A stretch of 25,020 nt of DNA from a virus, in IMG/VR virus record IMGVR_UViG_3300035034_000548, positions 1 to 25,020 of that record; one strand, given 5' to 3'. The position numbers and the translations under genes were made by a program. The notes below the pieces were generated by a model that ran no database searches, was not told where the DNA came from, and saw nothing but the letters and a program-made list of their open reading frames with translations. Positions 4,014 through 16,611 of the stretch are shown here, piece by piece. How positions within the stretch are numbered: position 1 is the first letter of the stretch; each line of letters starts with the position of its first letter.

Positions 4014-4531
4014 TAGCAGCTCCCCACTGCGCCTAGATTGCCCAGCACGCCGCCGTCTGTTAGCCCCTTGAGGTAATTGTCCGCGAGGGGGTACGACATC
4101 ACGCCGACATAGCCGCCGGTGCCGTCCATGTATTCGGTCTTCGTTTCCAATACGTCTACTTTGTCTTGCTGCGACTTCACAGTGCCGAGCACGCTGACGT
4201 CGGGCTGTAATGGTGCTGTCAATTGCCGATAGGCATACTCACAGACTGCGTACTTTAGGGCATCGGGTATGACGTCCGAAGCGATCACACGCCCCTCGTT
4301 GTCGATCACGCCGGAACGTGGCCAGCCTAACGCCTGCGCCGAGGACACAATCGCACCTCGCCAACTGTTGTTAGTGTCCACGTATTGCGTCGCGATAATA
4401 AGGGCTGCTTGATCGGTCGCGGTCTGTGTCACCGTGATGCCCCTGTCTGCCCAGTACGCGACCCACTCCACGAGCGAGACGTAAGACGTCGCACCTGTTA
4501 CGATTGAGCCGTCCTCAACTATAAACGCCAT
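4010..4531 (-). CDS. DnaT-like phage protein, probable head-tail adaptor
   Basis: A 173-residue protein with TGATSYVSLVEWVAYWADRG near the start, then ATQYVDTNNSWRGAIVSS and GWPRSG, and a helical C-terminal half (PDALKYAVCEYAYRQLTA). These segments are the hallmark of a phage family often annotated as DnaT-like ssDNA-binding protein. The position just after the capsid block instead points to a head-tail adaptor, binding under the portal. The DnaT name comes from distant similarity; I favour a structural role. It is coupled to the next gene by a 4-bp overlap. Confidence 0.7.
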   Translation of the reverse strand: MAFIVEDGSIVTGATSYVSLVEWVAYWADRGITVTQTATDQAALIIATQYVDTNNSWRGAIVSSAQALGWPRSGVIDNEGRVIASDVIPDALKYAVCEYAYRQLTAPLQPDVSVLGTVKSQQDKVDVLETKTEYMDGTGGYVGVMSYPLADNYLKGLTDGGVLGNLGAVGSCY

Positions 4532-4545
4532 GCCCTGCCCCTACT

Positions 4546-4875
4546 CTATTTTTTCGCTTTTGCTTTTTGCTCAGCGTCGAACTCAAGCTGGGCTTTTTTC
4601 TCGGCCTGTTTGATGTCGAGCTTGTCTTGCCTCTCAACTGCGGCGGCTGTCGCCTTCTCGGCTCTCTCGGCCTCGGCGGCTGCGCGCAGCTCAGTTAGGT
4701 TCGTCAGCTTCGGCGTATCTGTGGCGATGTCGTCAAGCTGGAACAGGTCGGCGAACTTGACGTCGACTATGCGCATGTTCTTCTCGCGAGCGAGCTGCTT
4801 TATGTTCTCTTTGAATTGGTGCGTGGGGTGCGGCACTAGCCACACTTTTCGAGTGTCTCTTATTTCGTTTGTCAT
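4546..4875 (-). CDS. Charged helical protein of unknown function
   Basis: A 109-residue protein. The N-terminal half (MTNEIRDTRKVWLVPHPTHQ) looks globular. The C-terminal third is an uninterrupted Ala/Glu/Lys/Arg helix ending AKAKK, likely a coiled coil or disordered tail. It is the first gene of the second structural block on this strand, behind the leader ATTCACTGACAATAAGAGA and divergent from the small plus-strand gene at 5025. Position between capsid and adaptor would suit a minor capsid or decoration protein, but nothing in the sequence shows this. Confidence 0.65.
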   Translation of the reverse strand: MTNEIRDTRKVWLVPHPTHQFKENIKQLAREKNMRIVDVKFADLFQLDDIATDTPKLTNLTELRAAAEAERAEKATAAAVERQDKLDIKQAEKKAQLEFDAEQKAKAKK

Positions 4876-8479: not shown

Positions 8480-9650
8480 TGCCTATTCTCCTGAACGCTT
8501 TTTCGCCTGCGTTAGTGTCTAGCAGTTCTTTAAGTGTGAGTTCTCGCCCTATCATATCATTAAAGCGGTCGATATTCAGGCCGCCATCAACGAACAGCTT
8601 GGCGCGCTCAGGCCCCAGCGTCGAATTGATAAACCAGCGAGGCTGTGACCGCAGCCACTTGTCTGACGACATACGTGCGCTCACTGTCTCGACCTTGAAC
8701 ATATCGTCGTCTGACCGGCCACGCCTCGTCACCTTCTTGGCCGTGTTGCCTTGGCGCTGGTCGAACCTTTCCTCGGCGGCCTTGGTCTTCTTACCGCCGA
8801 CGGCGGTGCGCTCGCCTGCGAGGGGGTCAAGGCCCCGCGTCTTAAAGAGGTACTTCGACCGCTCATTGTAATGGAAAGGCAGCGGCGGGTATTTCTCGCC
8901 GATGTCGTACTCGTTGAGGTGCCGCTTAAAGCAGATAGTCGTCGTGCGATTGTCTAGGGTGGCGAATAGTATGCGCGTCTGTATGTGGCGCTTATTTCTG
9001 ACAGCGAACTGGTCGGCGGCTGTGCTTGAGAAGTGAGACGTGCCTGTGCGTGCCAGCGCCTCGGCCCGCGCCCTTGTTAAGTTGTTTATCACACCACCCG
9101 ACCATTTCCGTGTCCGTCTGTTGTATGTGCCCCGTAACGCCTTCATAACTTCCGACTTAGATGCGCCGCTGTTGAACCCCTCGCGAATAGTCGAGACGAT
9201 TGCGCGGCTCGTGGCGTCACTGTTCTGCCGTGTAAATTCTAGCCATGTGCCTGACTGTGGTGATGCGCCTGTCAGGGTGATAAGGGCGGTACGTGTGGCG
9301 GCCGTTAGCTTGGCAGCGTTCGGGGCCGCCATTGTGATGCCTGTCAGATCGGAATACGTCGCGGCCAGCGCGTTGCCTTCGACCTTGGCGGCGGCGAGCA
9401 GCTCCTTGCTAATGTCGGCCCACATGCCGCCGACTTTCGTGTCCGTGTAGTCCCGAATCGCCCGTGTGAGGGCGTTCATCTCCACGCGGGTAAAGTCGTC
9501 AAAGTCTAGCTCGGCCAGTATGCGAGGCATGGCCTTGCTGAGCGCCTGCGTGGTCGGCGGTATGTTCTCGCGTATTAACAGCGTCGTGAAGCGCTGCCGA
9601 TTGACCTCACGCCGTAGCTCAGCGTCTAACAGTTCTTTATTGTTTGCCAT
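8469..9650 (-). CDS. Phage minor head protein (SPP1 gp7/Mu F-like)
   Basis: A 393-residue protein. The N-terminal half is helical. It is followed by RTGTSHFSSTAADQFAVRN and the family signature FATLDNRTTTICFKRHLNEY with KYPPLPFHYNERS, the usual T-L-D-R-T-x-x-I-C ... P-P-x-H-x-N-x-R-S pattern of the SPP1 gp7/Mu F family. Such proteins bind the portal inside the head and affect DNA exit. The pattern's second cysteine is replaced (HYNERS), which is common. AGGAG lies about 9 bases before the ATG. It comes before the portal gene here, whereas the reverse order is usual. Confidence 0.8.
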   Translation of the reverse strand: MANNKELLDAELRREVNRQRFTTLLIRENIPPTTQALSKAMPRILAELDFDDFTRVEMNALTRAIRDYTDTKVGGMWADISKELLAAAKVEGNALAATYSDLTGITMAAPNAAKLTAATRTALITLTGASPQSGTWLEFTRQNSDATSRAIVSTIREGFNSGASKSEVMKALRGTYNRRTRKWSGGVINNLTRARAEALARTGTSHFSSTAADQFAVRNKRHIQTRILFATLDNRTTTICFKRHLNEYDIGEKYPPLPFHYNERSKYLFKTRGLDPLAGERTAVGGKKTKAAEERFDQRQGNTAKKVTRRGRSDDDMFKVETVSARMSSDKWLRSQPRWFINSTLGPERAKLFVDGGLNIDRFNDMIGRELTLKELLDTNAGEKAFRRIGNGG

Positions 9651-9973: not shown

Positions 9974-11503
9974 TCAGTATCCCCGCCCTATGATGGGCAT
10001 TAGCTCGGCTTTCGTGTTAGCTGTGACGCGATACCGTAGCACGTCATAGTCGTGGTCTTCTTGCTCGGTGTCTACGTCGTCTGGTTTTTTCGTGTCCCGT
10101 GATAATACAGGAAAGCGGGAAATAATGCCGCGCACGTTCTCGAATATGTACAGCGCTGGCCGTTCGGGCTTTCCTGCCTGAGACTTCGACCCCTCGACCG
10201 CTGCCTCTAACATTTCACACAGTAACGCCGCACCACGTTCGCGAGAGCCTGCCGACTTGTCGGACGCCTCCCAGACAACGCCCTGCGCCTCCATTTTCTT
10301 TGCGATGCTGTTTGCCTCGTCGTCTGGGTTATTGATTGAGTTATCCGCAGGCCCAGCGAGAACGCCTTGCGGCGCAATGGCGGGTATGAGGTTTATCTCA
10401 CAGCCGAACACAGGGTCGATGCTGTTAGATGCGGACACAAGCGCCTCGTCTATTTGCTTCACGGTCTTGGCGACGTTCGTCGCGCTCATGTGCACCCCTT
10501 TGTTGATCTCGTCAGGGTCGCAGCCGTAAAACTCAGCTATCACGAACACGCAGCCCGCGCAGTATCCGCCGGTGCCGTCGCTCTCAGCAAACCACAAATT
10601 TGAGAAGGGCTTAGACTCACCCCAGTCATGGCCACGGTCGACGCGCCAGCTCGCTGGGATAACAAACGGCTTAACGACGTGAATCGCTTCGTCATACAGG
10701 TGGTCGAATCGTCCGCCCGCTGTGACAGACCAATCGCCATCGACCCACGCCTTGCGCCTGTTCGGGTCTTTTATTGATTGCAGATAAGCGATGTACTTCG
10801 CGTCAAGATATGGGTTCTCACGCCATGAGCCGTGTATTGCCACACGGGTGAGGGTTATCTCGACTTCTTGGTCGATACGTGGGTCGATAACGGTCATACT
10901 ATGGCGCGCCACTGTGCCACGCGGTACAGGATCGATGAATCGTTTCTTAACCCAGTTATGCCCAACGCCGAACGGGTTCGTCGTGCTAAATACTTCGAGC
11001 GGTATCGGTGGGAGGTCTACGCCTTCCGGCGTGATGTAGGACGACCGCATACACGAGAACATAGCCTCGTAGAATCCGGCGTCGGCCCGCTTCGTCAGCT
11101 CGTTGTATCCGATGAAGGGCAATTCCTGCCCGTGATAGTCCCAGTAGTCGGCCTCAGTGCGCGCGTACCTGAACATGAGTTCCTCACCTGTCGGCCATAC
11201 CCATTTTAGCTCAGACGGTGAGGCGAGAAACTTCGCGCCATCTCGGAAGGCATAAAAGAACTTTTTAGACTGGGCGATGATGTCCGAGAGATTCTTGTAC
11301 TCAATGTCGAATATCACACCACGCCAGTACGCACCATAACCCAGACCAACGCGAGCACGAAAGCGCATGAGCTGCACGGCTGTCTTGCTGGCACCTCGGG
11401 TGCCTTCGTAAAGAATCTCGTCACACGGGCACGACAGGGCCAAAGACTGCGACCCTTTCAGCGGCTTGAATACTACCTTATGACTTTGGAGTGCTTGCGA
11501 CAT
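9974..11503 (-). CDS. terL: Terminase large subunit
   Basis: A 509-residue packaging motor. The ATPase domain carries Walker A at residues 34-41 (GTRGASKT) and a Walker B-like strand LPFIGYNEL (128-136), with Glu135 as the likely catalytic acid. FSTTNPFGVGHNWVKK (about 172-187) is the coupling region. The C-terminal RNase H-like nuclease begins near RVDRGHDWGESKPF (287-300) with acidic residues Asp289 and Asp293. It cuts concatemeric DNA and pumps it through the portal. The ATG at 11503 overlaps the small terminase gene by 26 bp. Full-length and apparently intact. Confidence 0.92.
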   Translation of the reverse strand: MSQALQSHKVVFKPLKGSQSLALSCPCDEILYEGTRGASKTAVQLMRFRARVGLGYGAYWRGVIFDIEYKNLSDIIAQSKKFFYAFRDGAKFLASPSELKWVWPTGEELMFRYARTEADYWDYHGQELPFIGYNELTKRADAGFYEAMFSCMRSSYITPEGVDLPPIPLEVFSTTNPFGVGHNWVKKRFIDPVPRGTVARHSMTVIDPRIDQEVEITLTRVAIHGSWRENPYLDAKYIAYLQSIKDPNRRKAWVDGDWSVTAGGRFDHLYDEAIHVVKPFVIPASWRVDRGHDWGESKPFSNLWFAESDGTGGYCAGCVFVIAEFYGCDPDEINKGVHMSATNVAKTVKQIDEALVSASNSIDPVFGCEINLIPAIAPQGVLAGPADNSINNPDDEANSIAKKMEAQGVVWEASDKSAGSRERGAALLCEMLEAAVEGSKSQAGKPERPALYIFENVRGIISRFPVLSRDTKKPDDVDTEQEDHDYDVLRYRVTANTKAELMPIIGRGY

Positions 11504-12122
11504 TGAGCGCCACTTCTTGCTGTTGTTGGGCTATGGCTTCCCAGTCGTCGACCGAGGCCGCGTTCGGCACTAGCATGATGTTGTTCGTCACGTTGTGCTC
11601 GATGGCGTCCTTGTCCCACGCCCTGACACCGATGTGACGGCCTAGCAGCTCGGCGACTTTTAGCTTGTCCGGCAGCTTGATTTTCTTGAGCACCCCAACG
11701 ACGTCACGAGTGCGGCCTTCCTGTTCGATTATCTCTTGCACCTCTAGGGCGTTAACGCTTATGCGCCACGCTCGGGGCCATTGCCATATAGGCAGCACCC
11801 AGCCGTCGCCGTCGACTATGTCCGCGATGTCCAGCTCGGCCATCTCCCTGAGACGTACGCGAAGGTAATCTGCGCCGGTCTCGGTGCGCTTGTCGACGTC
11901 TGCGCACAATTCTGAAACATACGCTAATACTACGCGATGGTGAGCGTTGGCATATCCGGCCTGAGCGCAAGCCCCAGCCGCATAGCCTGCGTCACGAGCC
12001 GCCGCTGTGGCGTTGAACCCGTTCGCCACCCAATACCTCGCCCAGTACCGCTGTCTGCCGTTGAGACTTTCGCCTGCCGATTCTGTCATTTCGATCACCT
12101 TGTCACTGTATGCGCCTAGCAT
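11478..12122 (-). CDS. terS: Terminase small subunit
   Basis: A 214-residue protein. The N-terminal third has the Terminase_2-like DNA-binding helix set, LNGRQRYWARYWVANGFNAT followed by AAARDAGYAAG. The middle is helical (DYLRVRLREMAELDIADIVD), and the C-terminal region has KIKLPDKLKVAELLGRHIGV. Small terminases recognise the packaging site and load the large subunit. The start codon at 12122 is only about 10 bp from the first iteron of the candidate origin, so its promoter must lie within or beyond the iterons. The protein that binds them could then also control late transcription (inference). Confidence 0.88.
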   Translation of the reverse strand: MLGAYSDKVIEMTESAGESLNGRQRYWARYWVANGFNATAAARDAGYAAGACAQAGYANAHHRVVLAYVSELCADVDKRTETGADYLRVRLREMAELDIADIVDGDGWVLPIWQWPRAWRISVNALEVQEIIEQEGRTRDVVGVLKKIKLPDKLKVAELLGRHIGVRAWDKDAIEHNVTNNIMLVPNAASVDDWEAIAQQQQEVALNVASTPKS

Positions 12123-12131
12123 AACCTATTT

Positions 12132-12170
12132 GTAACACCGTAACACTTCGGTAACACTTCGGTAACACTT
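12132..12170 (+). repeat. Left iteron array, GTAACACT-type repeats
   Basis: Four direct repeats of GTAACAC[C/T] start at 12132, 12140, 12151 and 12162, at spacings of 8, 11 and 11 bp. The last three are GTAACACTT. The 11-bp pitch is about one helical turn, placing sites on one DNA face. A degenerate pair (GTGACACT GTAACGCT) follows at 12205-12220. Confidence 0.9.
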
Positions 12171-12364
12171 CCATTTCGGCCACAAGCCCCAGCGCCGCTA
12201 CATTGTGACACTGTAACGCTATTTAAGCTCAAACAACTTAAGAGAGCATCTCAGACAATATTCCCCTATATATATATATATATACTACATTTTAATAAGT
12301 TTATAGTTATATAGTGTTACAGCGTTACACCTCCCCGCCTCTAAGCCTCTAATCTAATAATCAT

Positions 12365-12401
12365 AGTGTTACAGTAGTGTTACACAAGTGTTACGCGTTA
12401 C
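12365..12401 (-). repeat. Right iteron array, inverted copies
   Basis: Copies of AGTGTTAC (reverse complement of GTAACACT) start at 12365, 12376 and 12387, at 11-bp pitch, followed by the degenerate CGCGTTAC at 12394-12401. Further copies, AGTGTTAC and AGCGTTAC, are adjacent at 12313-12328. Order and spacing mirror the left array. Confidence 0.9.
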
Positions 12402-12742: not shown

Positions 12743-13059
12743 AGTTAAAGCGACCCAAGATAGGCGACACCTTTTTCGCCGTATCCCATACAGCCCACCG
12801 CTCGACCGTCGTCGTGTATCATGTCGGACAGACGCACTTTTATACCCGCGTAGCGGGGAGCAACGCACCGGCCGGAAGGTTCGCGCTAGGCACCCACGCT
12901 AACAATAAGGGTGTAGTGATCTATAAGGATGAAAAAACATACTACGACACCGAGCGAGTCGCTGGTCTCATTGAGCGCATACGGCGCACCCTGAGCGACG
13001 GCGTGTACACCCCGCACGAGGCCCAGAAAATGGCAAAAATATTAGGTATAACCCCTTGA
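12739..13059 (+). CDS. Small beta-rich protein of unknown function
   Basis: A 106-residue protein, MKLKRPKIGDTFFAVSHTAH. The first 75 residues alternate hydrophobic and polar positions (STVVVYHVGQTHFYTRVAG), suggesting a small beta barrel of the kind seen at IGDTF..V sequences. The end is helical (YTPHEAQKMAKILGITP). It is coupled to its neighbours by 4-bp and TTGA overlaps. Its product could be an accessory of the primase encoded downstream; that is inference only. Confidence 0.7.
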   Translation: MKLKRPKIGDTFFAVSHTAHRSTVVVYHVGQTHFYTRVAGSNAPAGRFALGTHANNKGVVIYKDEKTYYDTERVAGLIERIRRTLSDGVYTPHEAQKMAKILGITP

Positions 13060-13244
13060 GCACCACACCAGAAAAAATGTACAAGACGAAGGAGGTCGCC
13101 GAGCGGCTGAACGTATCCCGCGACACCGTCCTGTCTTTAGTTAAGAAAGGTGCACTTCGCGCCGTATGGGCTGGGCCAAGGTCGCCCCGCATCTCTGAGA
13201 GTTCCTTGATACAGTTTGAAAAATCAGGGGGTGTTAGTGAGTAA
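13056..13244 (+). CDS. Small helix-turn-helix DNA-binding protein (excisionase/MerR-like)
   Basis: A 62-residue protein if started at TTG 13056, whose TTGA overlaps the upstream stop; the alternative ATG at 13077 removes 7 residues and has no better ribosome site. It contains YKTKEVAERLNVSRDTVLSL, the pattern of the HTH_17/excisionase family, then a wing-like GALRAVWAGPRSPRISESS and a closing LIQFEK. Such proteins bind DNA as recombination directionality factors, repressors or replication helpers. No integrase is in view. It sits between the origin and the primase gene, so binding the iterons is a reasonable hypothesis. Confidence 0.75.
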   Translation: MSTTPEKMYKTKEVAERLNVSRDTVLSLVKKGALRAVWAGPRSPRISESSLIQFEKSGGVSE

Positions 13245-15663
13245 CTTGGCAAGACAACTATTCGACAACGGGCTGGCAGTGTTCCCGTGTCGTGCTGATA
13301 AGTTACCCGCCGTGCCAAAAGGTTCGAGCTGGCGTGAGCTCTCAAAGTTAGACCCCAAGCGTCACACATGGCCCCTCGACGGCCTCGTTGGCGTTCCTGT
13401 GCCTGACGGTGTAATCGTTCTCGACCTAGACACATACAAGGGCGTGACGTGTGAAGCGGTCGAGGAGGCGCTCGGTTGTCGGCTTGACTGGCAGGGTGGC
13501 CTCATACAGTCCACACTCAACGGCGGCAAACACTATGCTTTCGCCTGCGATTTCTCTGCGAAGTTCGGCAGCAACATTCTAGGCGTGAAAGGATTCGATA
13601 CTCGCGTCGCTGGCAAGGGGTACATCGCAACGGGCGACGCCTATACGTGGGGCGAAGACGGCGGCGTGTTTAAGCTGACCGGCTCAACGTTGCCCAAGCT
13701 TCCAGCCGAGGCACGCGAACGGCTGGAAATGTTAGAACAGGCCCCCGAACGCGAACGGGCAGCACTGCCCACAGGCGACCGGGACCTTGACGCTATCAAG
13801 GCGGCACTGGCTGCGATCTCGCCAGCTTGTGGGCGCACAGAGTGGGTCAGGGTGGGGTTGGCACTCCGGCACCACTTCCATGACGATATGACGACAGGCG
13901 AGGCCCTGTTCGACGCTTGGAGTGCTGGCGACATGTCAGTCGACGGTATGCCTGAGAACTACGAGGCTGAGACAATCGGCGCACAGTGGCGCAGCTTTAA
14001 GGCCGAGGGCGGCGTCACCATTGCAACACTGTTTCACCACGCCATAGCAGCGGGATGGCAGCCACCGGCAGGGCTTGACACGTCGCTGGCATTCGGCGGC
14101 ACACCGGCCACGGCGAGCACCTTCAACGCACTGGTCGACCAGATCACCACGACAGGCGGCGACCCTAAAAGCACTAACGGATTAATTCAGGACGTGCAGC
14201 GATTGCCATGTAACGAGCTACAACGGGGCGTGCTGCTTGCGACCTTGGCCCGCGAACTCAAAGACGCCGACCTACTGACCAAGGCCGTGCGCGTCCAACT
14301 AGACGGCGGCAAGGCACCCAAGGCGAAGGGCGACTACGATACGAGCCACACAGCGAACGCGATCACATTCTTAAACACACAATTCCCAGACAACACCCTG
14401 CGCCGTGTAGATGATGTCTGGTATCATTACACCGGCAAGGCATGGGAGTCGCTCACCGACGGGCACATCAGGCACCTAGTGGCCGTCGCGATGGCGGCGA
14501 GTGCGCCCCAGCATTCAACTGTCACCGGCACAGTCAACATGATGGCCGAACTCGTAAACAATCCGACGGCTAAGCTGGGCGACATACCCGACGGCTTGGT
14601 GATCTTGCAAAACGGCGTACTGAACGTGAACACCGGCGCAATACTGCCACACAGTGCGACATTCTTTTCGACCACCATCATGCCATATAGATACAACATA
14701 CAGGCGCGCTGTGACTCGTGGCTACAATTTCTCGACACCACATTCGACGGCGACCCTGAGCGCATCGCACTATTGCAGGAGTGGTTCGGCTACATGTTGA
14801 CGTCGAGCTACTCACACCAAAAGATACTCGTCTTACTGGGGCCTATGAGGTGCGGCAAGGGCACCATAGGGCGGGTGCTGAACATGCTAGTGGGCGACGC
14901 GAATTTCAGCGGGGGCAGCCTCTCAGCGTTCGCAGACGACGCTTTTATCGACAGCGTGAGCGAGAAGACTGTTGTGTTCATAGGCGACGCGGCGAAGAGC
15001 TTACCACGCAACGCGAGCGACCGAATCATTGAGCGACTCAAGGGCGTCTCAGGCAATGACAAAATCCCATACGGCAGGAAGTATAAGCCGAACGCTAACG
15101 GATACATTCCGGCGCGCATAACAGTGGCCGCGAACCATGTGCCGAGACTGTTCGACGATTCGGGCGCACTGGCCTCGCGCATGATGGTGTTGCCCTTTGA
15201 TAATTCGTTCTACGGGCGCGAAGACTTGGAGCTGTTCGACAGGCTGGCGAAGGATATAGAAGGCATCGCCATGTGGGCGCTCGCCGGATTAAACAGGCTC
15301 AGCGAGTACAAGAAGTTTACCGCACCAAAGGCCAGCAAGGACGAAGAGAGATATCTCCGCGAAGCGTACAGCCCTATGATGCAATTCATCGAGGAGACGT
15401 TCGACATGGGGGGCGCGAATCGCCTCTCGTGTGAGCAGACGTACGAGGCATATAAGGGCTGGGCGTTGTCCAGACAAGAGGAAAAAATACTACCCCGCCG
15501 CACGCTAATCGGCACACTAAAAGACGCGACCCGAGGGCGTGGTGTCCGATACGGCGCGCACAGGATGCCGGACGGTAGCACGTCGAGAGGCTTCGAGGGG
15601 CTCACCATTAAACCGCAGACACCCGTCAGCGGCTCCATACCTCTACACGCCATTAAGCAGTAG
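13237..15663 (+). CDS. Bifunctional primase-polymerase / SF3 helicase replication protein
   Basis: I choose GTG 13237 (808 residues) because AGGGGG lies just upstream and it overlaps the previous stop; TTG 13216 would add 7. The N-terminal prim-pol domain (about 5-165) carries VLDLDTYKG with metal-binding Asp63 and Asp65, and GGKHYAFA at about 96-103. A PriCT-2-like helical domain covers about 185-270 (CGRTEWVRVGLALRHHFHDD). The D5/P4-type SF3 helicase follows, with Walker A GPMRCGKGT at 535-543 and Walker B-like TVVFIGDA. The sequence AANHVPRLFDDSGALASRMM and a winged-helix-like C-terminus complete it. It would prime, unwind and probably initiate at the adjacent origin. Confidence 0.92.
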   Translation: MSNLARQLFDNGLAVFPCRADKLPAVPKGSSWRELSKLDPKRHTWPLDGLVGVPVPDGVIVLDLDTYKGVTCEAVEEALGCRLDWQGGLIQSTLNGGKHYAFACDFSAKFGSNILGVKGFDTRVAGKGYIATGDAYTWGEDGGVFKLTGSTLPKLPAEARERLEMLEQAPERERAALPTGDRDLDAIKAALAAISPACGRTEWVRVGLALRHHFHDDMTTGEALFDAWSAGDMSVDGMPENYEAETIGAQWRSFKAEGGVTIATLFHHAIAAGWQPPAGLDTSLAFGGTPATASTFNALVDQITTTGGDPKSTNGLIQDVQRLPCNELQRGVLLATLARELKDADLLTKAVRVQLDGGKAPKAKGDYDTSHTANAITFLNTQFPDNTLRRVDDVWYHYTGKAWESLTDGHIRHLVAVAMAASAPQHSTVTGTVNMMAELVNNPTAKLGDIPDGLVILQNGVLNVNTGAILPHSATFFSTTIMPYRYNIQARCDSWLQFLDTTFDGDPERIALLQEWFGYMLTSSYSHQKILVLLGPMRCGKGTIGRVLNMLVGDANFSGGSLSAFADDAFIDSVSEKTVVFIGDAAKSLPRNASDRIIERLKGVSGNDKIPYGRKYKPNANGYIPARITVAANHVPRLFDDSGALASRMMVLPFDNSFYGREDLELFDRLAKDIEGIAMWALAGLNRLSEYKKFTAPKASKDEERYLREAYSPMMQFIEETFDMGGANRLSCEQTYEAYKGWALSRQEEKILPRRTLIGTLKDATRGRGVRYGAHRMPDGSTSRGFEGLTIKPQTPVSGSIPLHAIKQ

Positions 15664-16236: not shown

Positions 16237-16611
16237 GTGTTGCAGCGGGTGCGGTGCGTAGCACGAGAGGCCACACAAGCCGCTCAGGCCGACGCCTTTC
16301 GTGTAGCCTTCCCAGACGTCCAGACGTCCAGACGTCCAGACGTCACCGAGTACCTAACAGCCCACAAAAACGACGACGAGGGCTTCGGATCCCTGCCTGA
16401 CATGATGCGCAGCGTTGAGCGCCTCGGCACCGTAGACTACAAGCTGCTAATTCGTGACGATAGGGGGTCTAAATTGTTGGGATCGAGACCGACCAGCATA
16501 GAGGATGCGGCCAAGGGTGACAGGGTCAGCTTTATGGCTAAGATTGAGCGCTCAGACGACGACGCAAAGTTCGGATTTTACAAGCGGCCAACGAAGGCCG
16601 CCATCGTTTAG
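16237..16611 (+). CDS. Unknown phage protein, possible OB-like fold; start uncertain
   Basis: The C-terminal 75 residues are well formed: LPDMMRSVERLGTVDYKLLI, then PTSIEDAAKGDRVSFMAKIE and FGFYKRPTKAAIV. The pattern of strands with a final GFYKRPT resembles small OB-like proteins in other phages, but this is a weak impression. The start is unclear: GTG 16237, TTG 16240 and GTG 16249 are candidates, none with a good ribosome site, while the better-placed ATG at 16223 (overlapping the upstream stop) ends after 12 codons. An 8-bp repeat array lies inside the coding frame. Its TAG overlaps the stop of the convergent minus-strand gene. Confidence 0.6.
   Translation: MLQRVRCVAREATQAAQADAFRVAFPDVQTSRRPDVTEYLTAHKNDDEGFGSLPDMMRSVERLGTVDYKLLIRDDRGSKLLGSRPTSIEDAAKGDRVSFMAKIERSDDDAKFGFYKRPTKAAIV
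16313..16344. repeat. Four perfect tandem copies of the 8-bp unit CAGACGTC
   Basis: CAGACGTC is repeated at 16313, 16321, 16329 and 16337; each copy contains the palindrome GACGTC. The unit is not a multiple of three, so gain or loss of one copy would shift the reading frame of the gene around it. It encodes DVQTSRRPDVT in the present frame. Confidence 0.9.

Follow-up and report, generated by a model that had tools for sequence, protein, structure and literature searches.

The question raised by the 25,020-bp viral contig analysed here (IMG/VR record IMGVR_UViG_3300035034_000548, referred to over its whole length as the window) is what function is served by a block of short repeats, or iterons, at positions 12132–12401, which has the terminase small subunit gene (start codon at 12122) on its left and the first rightward gene (∼12533) on its right. 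We conclude that the phage very probably starts its replication at this block. The heptamer GTAACAC occurs 10 times in the window where 2.5 copies are expected, a number that no shuffled sequence gives, and 8 of the 10 fall within 263 bp. The block holds these 8 exact copies of GTAACAC/GTGTTAC, and with one-base variants there are 12 sites, six per side. On the left, the outer array (12132–12168, GTGTTAC on the minus strand) consists of four GTAACAC copies starting at 12132, 12140, 12151 and 12162 (spacing 8, 11, 11), and is followed by an inner doublet on the same strand (12204–12219), TGTGACAC at 12204 and TGTAACGC at 12212, 8 bp apart. An AT-rich core, the presumed melting site, extends from 12220 to 12313 (77% A+T) and includes (TA)9 at 12267–12284. 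On the right, all on the plus strand, an inner doublet (12314–12329) of GTGTTACA at 12314 and GCGTTACA at 12322, again 8 bp apart, precedes an outer array (12366–12401) of GTGTTAC at 12366, 12377 and 12388 and GCGTTAC at 12395 (spacing 11, 11, 7). The inner doublets pair as nested inverted repeats about 12266.5 and the four outer pairs are centred at 12266.5–12267, so that all six pairs share one centre within ∼0.5 bp, at the edge of (TA)9; when the six left sites were placed at random, a shared centre as good arose in 1 of 5000 trials. The site listing and this placement test bear out the preliminary description of the locus with respect to the repeat copies, their spacings on both sides and the common centre by (TA)9. 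It had also called the inner inverted pairs exactly centred, and the centre at 12266.5 holds, but the pairs are not all identical because GTGACAC, one of the inner left sites, departs from the motif by one base.

Relatives were collected from IMG/VR and from isolated phages with the primase-helicase of the adjoining operon as the query. This protein was chosen because a DNA-level search against 50,697 phages gave no match, and the terminase and helix-turn-helix (HTH) proteins as queries gave no useful relatives. Primase relatives at 31–57% identity were found in both sources, the isolated phages being Alteromonas R9Y1–R9Y3, Aeromonas AeroV_348, Oceanospirillum PD0307 and Vibrio 97.13. Short-motif arrays adjoin the primase operon in most relatives, and the block adjoins the D5 primase gene in relatives down to ∼32–45% identity. 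The preliminary description had pointed to comparison with related phages, and there the geometry is conserved while the iteron sequence is not: the motifs include GTGTTAC and CGTTACA, GTGTGAC, CGTCACA, CGGTACA, GTGTAGT, AAGTGGT, TAAGCAC, AACTACA, GACTACA, TTACTAC and ATACAAC, but a doublet 8–9 bp apart is kept, with an inverted copy 93–123 bp leftward and a further site 51–56 bp (mostly 51–53 bp) rightward. The doublet score exceeds that of any shuffle in at least 13 loci, and the inverted sites flank an AT-rich core of 82–109 bp in 20 loci; when the exact sites of these 20 loci are pooled, 45 point leftward and 4 rightward to the left of the centre, as against 93 rightward and 33 leftward to its right. 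A first, strict doublet scan overlooked the window itself because its left doublet is degenerate.

Measured from the inner right iteron, the sites follow a lattice of 0, 8–9, 52, 63, 74 and ∼82 bp, with inverted copies ∼100 bp off across the AT-rich core; the right-hand sites of the window occupy positions 0, 8, 52, 63, 74 and 81. Seven iteron types are represented in 13 phages, and of their 61 same-strand sites 42 lie in the bins 51–53, 62–64, 73–75 and 81–84 bp, where 5.4 are expected (P ∼4e-30), and not one lies 15–50 bp from the inner right iteron. Without the window and L002, the phages in which the pattern was first noticed, 35 of 54 sites are still in the bins (P ∼6e-24). These P values overstate independence because some of the 13 phages are related to each other, and the seven different motifs are the better argument. 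In L006, L007 and L013 we noted in addition a cluster of overlapping inverted iterons (TGTAACGTTACA type) ∼165–195 bp right of the centre, outside the main lattice.

A geometry scan that took no account of iteron sequence, run over 112 loci with shuffled loci as the control, extended the lattice beyond this phage family. Thirty-three of the 112 loci (some being repeats of one genome) attained a score reached by 0 of the 112 shuffled loci, not one of which scored 3 or less. Among the new lattice loci are compact contigs of prophage- or island-like character and elements inserted into the chromosomes of Acidithiobacillus and Rhodanobacter; counting these, at least ten unrelated iteron sequences share the lattice. 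For the distant iterons CCCGGAC, ATCGTCG, ATCGTCC, GTGGATA and CCCGTGC the block lies after the D5 helicase gene, as in phage-inducible islands, and for L036 (iteron AAGTGTA) it lies before. The ruler, whole or in part, stands beside D5 genes with unrelated iterons in L095 (∼8048), L096 (∼7473), L098 (∼7474), L079 (∼3379), L070/L072/L077 (∼4139–4439), L055 (∼7285) and L036 (∼4601), and several of the integrated or compact elements bearing it also encode an integrase and terminase, portal or capsid genes. Geometry matches in L041 and at 7503 of P4 lie within coding sequence and were taken as chance. No convincing lattice was found in the stretches scanned of Salmonella phage 9NA and Escherichia phage Bas82, whose similarity is confined to the helicase, nor in those of Pseudoalteromonas PY6 and Vibrio 1.009.O. 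The PrimPol-like proteins of PY6 and of Vibrio phage VP16T (L109, H20) are annotated as putative integrase, apparently wrongly.

Because unrelated elements keep the spacing although the sequence of the sites has changed wholly, the comparison suggests a ring-shaped helicase assembled on a fixed DNA ruler. It also bears on what lies to the left of the block. The left array and the terminase small subunit start codon are 10 bp apart, as might be expected of a packaging (pac or cos) site read by that subunit, but in relatives the left neighbour may belong to either of two terminase families, encode a minor tail or neck protein or be an unknown gene, while the iterons stay with the replication operon, and in the integrated elements they come after the helicase gene; we therefore regard a packaging site as very improbable. 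Given the same variation of the left neighbour, the earlier suggestion that the initiator may control late transcription is not supported.

Which protein reads the iterons was considered next to the gene content of the operon. The primase-helicase (13216–15663, plus strand), the proposed initiator, has Prim-Pol, PriCT-2, D5_N and DUF5906 domains and a C-terminal winged helix; D5_N and DUF5906 score above the Pfam cut-offs, placing a D5-type superfamily 3 (SF3)/AAA+ helicase next to the block. In a profile search with the whole protein, the closest solved structure was the DNA primase 7ola/7om0 (E 1.7e-27), which we take to be that of SaPI5 Rep, and the match extends into the C-terminal domain; the profile of that domain on its own found no relevant solved structure. 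The domain (15373–15612, plus strand; model residues 31–110), the proposed iteron reader, is predicted by AlphaFold2 to be a Pox_D5-like winged helix with a predicted local distance difference test (pLDDT) score of ∼90, and superposition of the model on the P4 origin-binding domain (1KA8) gives Z 9.1 and a root-mean-square deviation of 2.5 Å over 82 residues. RFX DNA-binding domains and the C-terminus of the African swine fever virus PrimPol score like the P4 domain against it, and we read the RFX matches as reflecting the shared winged-helix fold only. A Pox_D5 match is present in 15 of 19 relatives, the window's own domain being below the curated cut-off. Among the proteins of five elements that were scanned, the D5 helicase core (DUF5906, mostly with D5_N) was found in 5/5, Pox_D5 in 4/5 and HTH_17 in 0/5, and the primase was of PrimPol or Toprim type or was lacking.

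The other candidate is a 62-residue HTH_17 protein (13056–13244, plus strand), whose gene overlaps the primase start and which is a proposed autoregulator of the operon. The iterons could be its operators, the protein coating the direct repeats and repressing or activating divergent promoters, with the origin elsewhere. Its gene stands directly before the primase gene in nearly all relatives, and small HTH proteins such as BldC and Xis can bind direct repeats one turn apart. Plasmid pRN1, moreover, has a repressor gene at the same place (PMC4234260). However, no copy of the gene turned up in the complete record of Vibrio phage 97.13 or in three more family contigs, all having the geometry or traces of it, and the lattice also occurs in elements without this HTH. 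Between phages with the same iteron, the HTH recognition helix has a mean identity of 26%, whereas in the primase domain the helix averages 50% and the wing 66%, and no sigma-70-like promoter was found at the block. We consider it improbable that the iterons are HTH_17 operators. The preliminary description had named both proteins as candidate binders; the primase-helicase, through its predicted P4-like C-terminal winged helix (Pox_D5), is the one we favour, and HTH_17 is the weaker candidate because a complete phage genome with the conserved geometry yielded no copy of it. Most likely the HTH_17 protein regulates the operon.

We thus return to the block as an origin, and propose with considerable confidence that it works as follows. 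The D5-type primase-helicase from the adjoining operon would use its C-terminal winged helix to bind the GTGTTAC iterons. On each side the inner doublet (8 bp) and the outer array five helical turns off (52, 63, 74 and 81 bp) make six sites, from which we infer one for each subunit of a hexamer, and the two facing halves would load two opposed hexamers. Melting of the intervening AT-rich core by these hexamers would give rise to two forks. Primers would be laid by the primase-helicase itself and extended by the phage's own family A polymerase. The comparison and the P4-like winged helix lend strong support to the part of the preliminary description that saw here an initiator-dependent origin with facing iteron sets; bidirectional loading, which it had also suggested, stays an inference. 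More generally, it is quite possible, if somewhat doubtful, that origins of D5-type self-loading helicases share one ruler (0, 8–9, 52, 63, 74 and ∼82 bp, and an inverted counterpart beyond an AT core) that is independent of sequence because each of the six winged helices in a hexameric ring occupies one of six sites; the window would then be a complete double-hexamer template, and initiator and iteron sequences would change together while the ruler stays.

Several observations weigh against these proposals. The full six-plus-six mirror is present in the window and, in part, in L002 and L003, and other relatives have 1–3 left sites. The lattice is clear in ∼25 D5 loci but not in L025/L026, L043 and L053. 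Covariation between winged-helix residues and iterons was sought in five phages, and an excess of changes was seen in one (L027) only. Cumulative GC skew in the complete relative R9Y2 makes no turn at the block and has its minimum elsewhere. Mapping of the replication start by GC skew, which the preliminary description had put forward, therefore did not place it at the block; we rejected GC skew as an origin marker because it is confounded by gene direction. The AT-skew minimum of R9Y2 lies at 30440, beside the block (core ∼30403), and is confounded by gene direction as well. Since only the window and, partly, L002 and L003 mirror the outer array leftward, full symmetry is an elaboration of a conserved asymmetric plan, and twelve sites are not essential to the family, other relatives having so few on the left. 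In an alternative reading the block is still an origin, but only its right half works, the left array serves as a decoy or for copy control, and replication runs in one direction. Many relatives keep the full right lattice with merely a left doublet or triplet, and by annotation P4 crr is an additional set of sites away from ori. On the other hand, the left inverted site or doublet is kept in almost all relatives, and the left array of the window is an exact mirror; we judge a functional right half alone to be unlikely, though less so than the operator or packaging explanations. A DnaA-dependent iteron plasmid origin of the Rep_3 type was also considered and rejected. Iterons of that type measure 17–22 bp, those of the window 7–8 bp; the DnaA box TTWTNCACA was not found in the window, and none of the ten proteins scanned with Pfam matched Rep_3.

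The leftward genes of the window include the terminase large and small subunits, the latter (11478–12122, minus strand) not conserved as such as the left neighbour in relatives. Rightward genes encode the HTH_17 protein, the PrimPol-D5 primase-helicase, an exonuclease, a single-stranded DNA-binding protein and a family A-like DNA polymerase, and the right arm also holds leftward-oriented helicase and nuclease genes. Within a predicted gene at 16237–16611 we observed four copies of CCAGACGT at 8-bp pitch (16312–16343). Both terminase subunits and a DNA polymerase are thus encoded by the window itself, and an isolated relative has head and tail genes.

Origins with two iteron sets are known from phage-inducible chromosomal islands (PICIs), which the earlier statement that such origins usually act in one direction overlooks. 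The origins of Staphylococcus aureus pathogenicity islands (SaPIs) and E. coli PICIs, with Rep or Pri-Rep, resemble the block in having a self-loading initiator helicase whose C-terminal domain binds iterons, of D5 type in SaPI5 (PMC6092414, PMC7581432). In both island Rep and Cch2 it is the C-terminal domain that contacts the iterons, and Rep seems to do so in the form of two hexamers (PMC7581432). However, the block (12132–12401) precedes the replication genes (operon from ∼12533, primase at 13216–15663) whereas a PICI origin directly follows the rep gene, and the window phage has its own terminase and polymerase whereas PICIs are satellites dependent on a helper phage. The available parts of the PICI sources (PMC6092414, PMC7581432), which include a 2018 paper stating that this organisation is found in no other known bacterial replicon, report no fixed spacing ruler for PICI origins. 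Judged by sequence, the block would be a two-iteron-set origin of PICI-like kind in a phage, and the organisation called unique to PICIs is also that of ordinary tailed phages. The paper on the R9Y phages describes no replication origin (PMC9430817).

The satellite phage P4 shares a D5-type helicase with a Pox_D5 winged helix, by which the alpha protein binds origin repeats (PMC4234260), 8-bp iterons, and a doublet with an iteron 52–53 bp off. Among its annotated type-1 iterons (L111), the doublet spacing is 9 bp and the inverted site follows at 52 bp in both crr copies (4314–4405 and 4494–4585), the corresponding distances at ori (9310–9413) being 10 and 53 bp. P4 differs in its Toprim primase, in having ori and crr kilobases apart, in the inversion of the distant iteron and in lacking mirror symmetry in one block. 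In the ACTACA/ACAACA subgroup of our relatives (L021, L022, L032, L033, L035 and L037) the iteron five turns from the doublet is likewise inverted, as in P4, and not direct. The orf56/orf904 pair of pRN1 is similar in that a small DNA-binding protein gene lies ahead of a primase-helicase with a C-terminal winged helix (PMC4234260), but the origin proposed for it consists of a long stem-loop downstream of the gene and not of iterons. The putative origin of Cch2 in the staphylococcal cassette chromosome mec (SCCmec) combines a D5-type helicase with short iterons (AAGTG) bound by its C-terminal domain (PMC7581432), but there are merely three iterons there, after the gene. The origins of simian virus 40 and papillomavirus also receive an SF3-type helicase in the form of two hexamers that face each other (PMC9894130), but the origin-binding domain is N-terminal (PMC7581432) and the sites are different. 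The fixed ruler and the six sites per side facing a presumed hexamer appear not to be described in the literature covered, to which the original work on the SaPI and P4 origins did not belong.

There is no settled account of how D5/SF3-type helicases of phages, satellites, plasmids and large DNA viruses load themselves on double-stranded DNA as opposed rings. A ruler that persists among many unrelated iterons offers a structural prediction, with six sites per ring and five turns from doublet to array, for which the 270-bp block would be a compact substrate for structure determination, and it may allow origins to be found by geometry alone in unannotated phages and islands.
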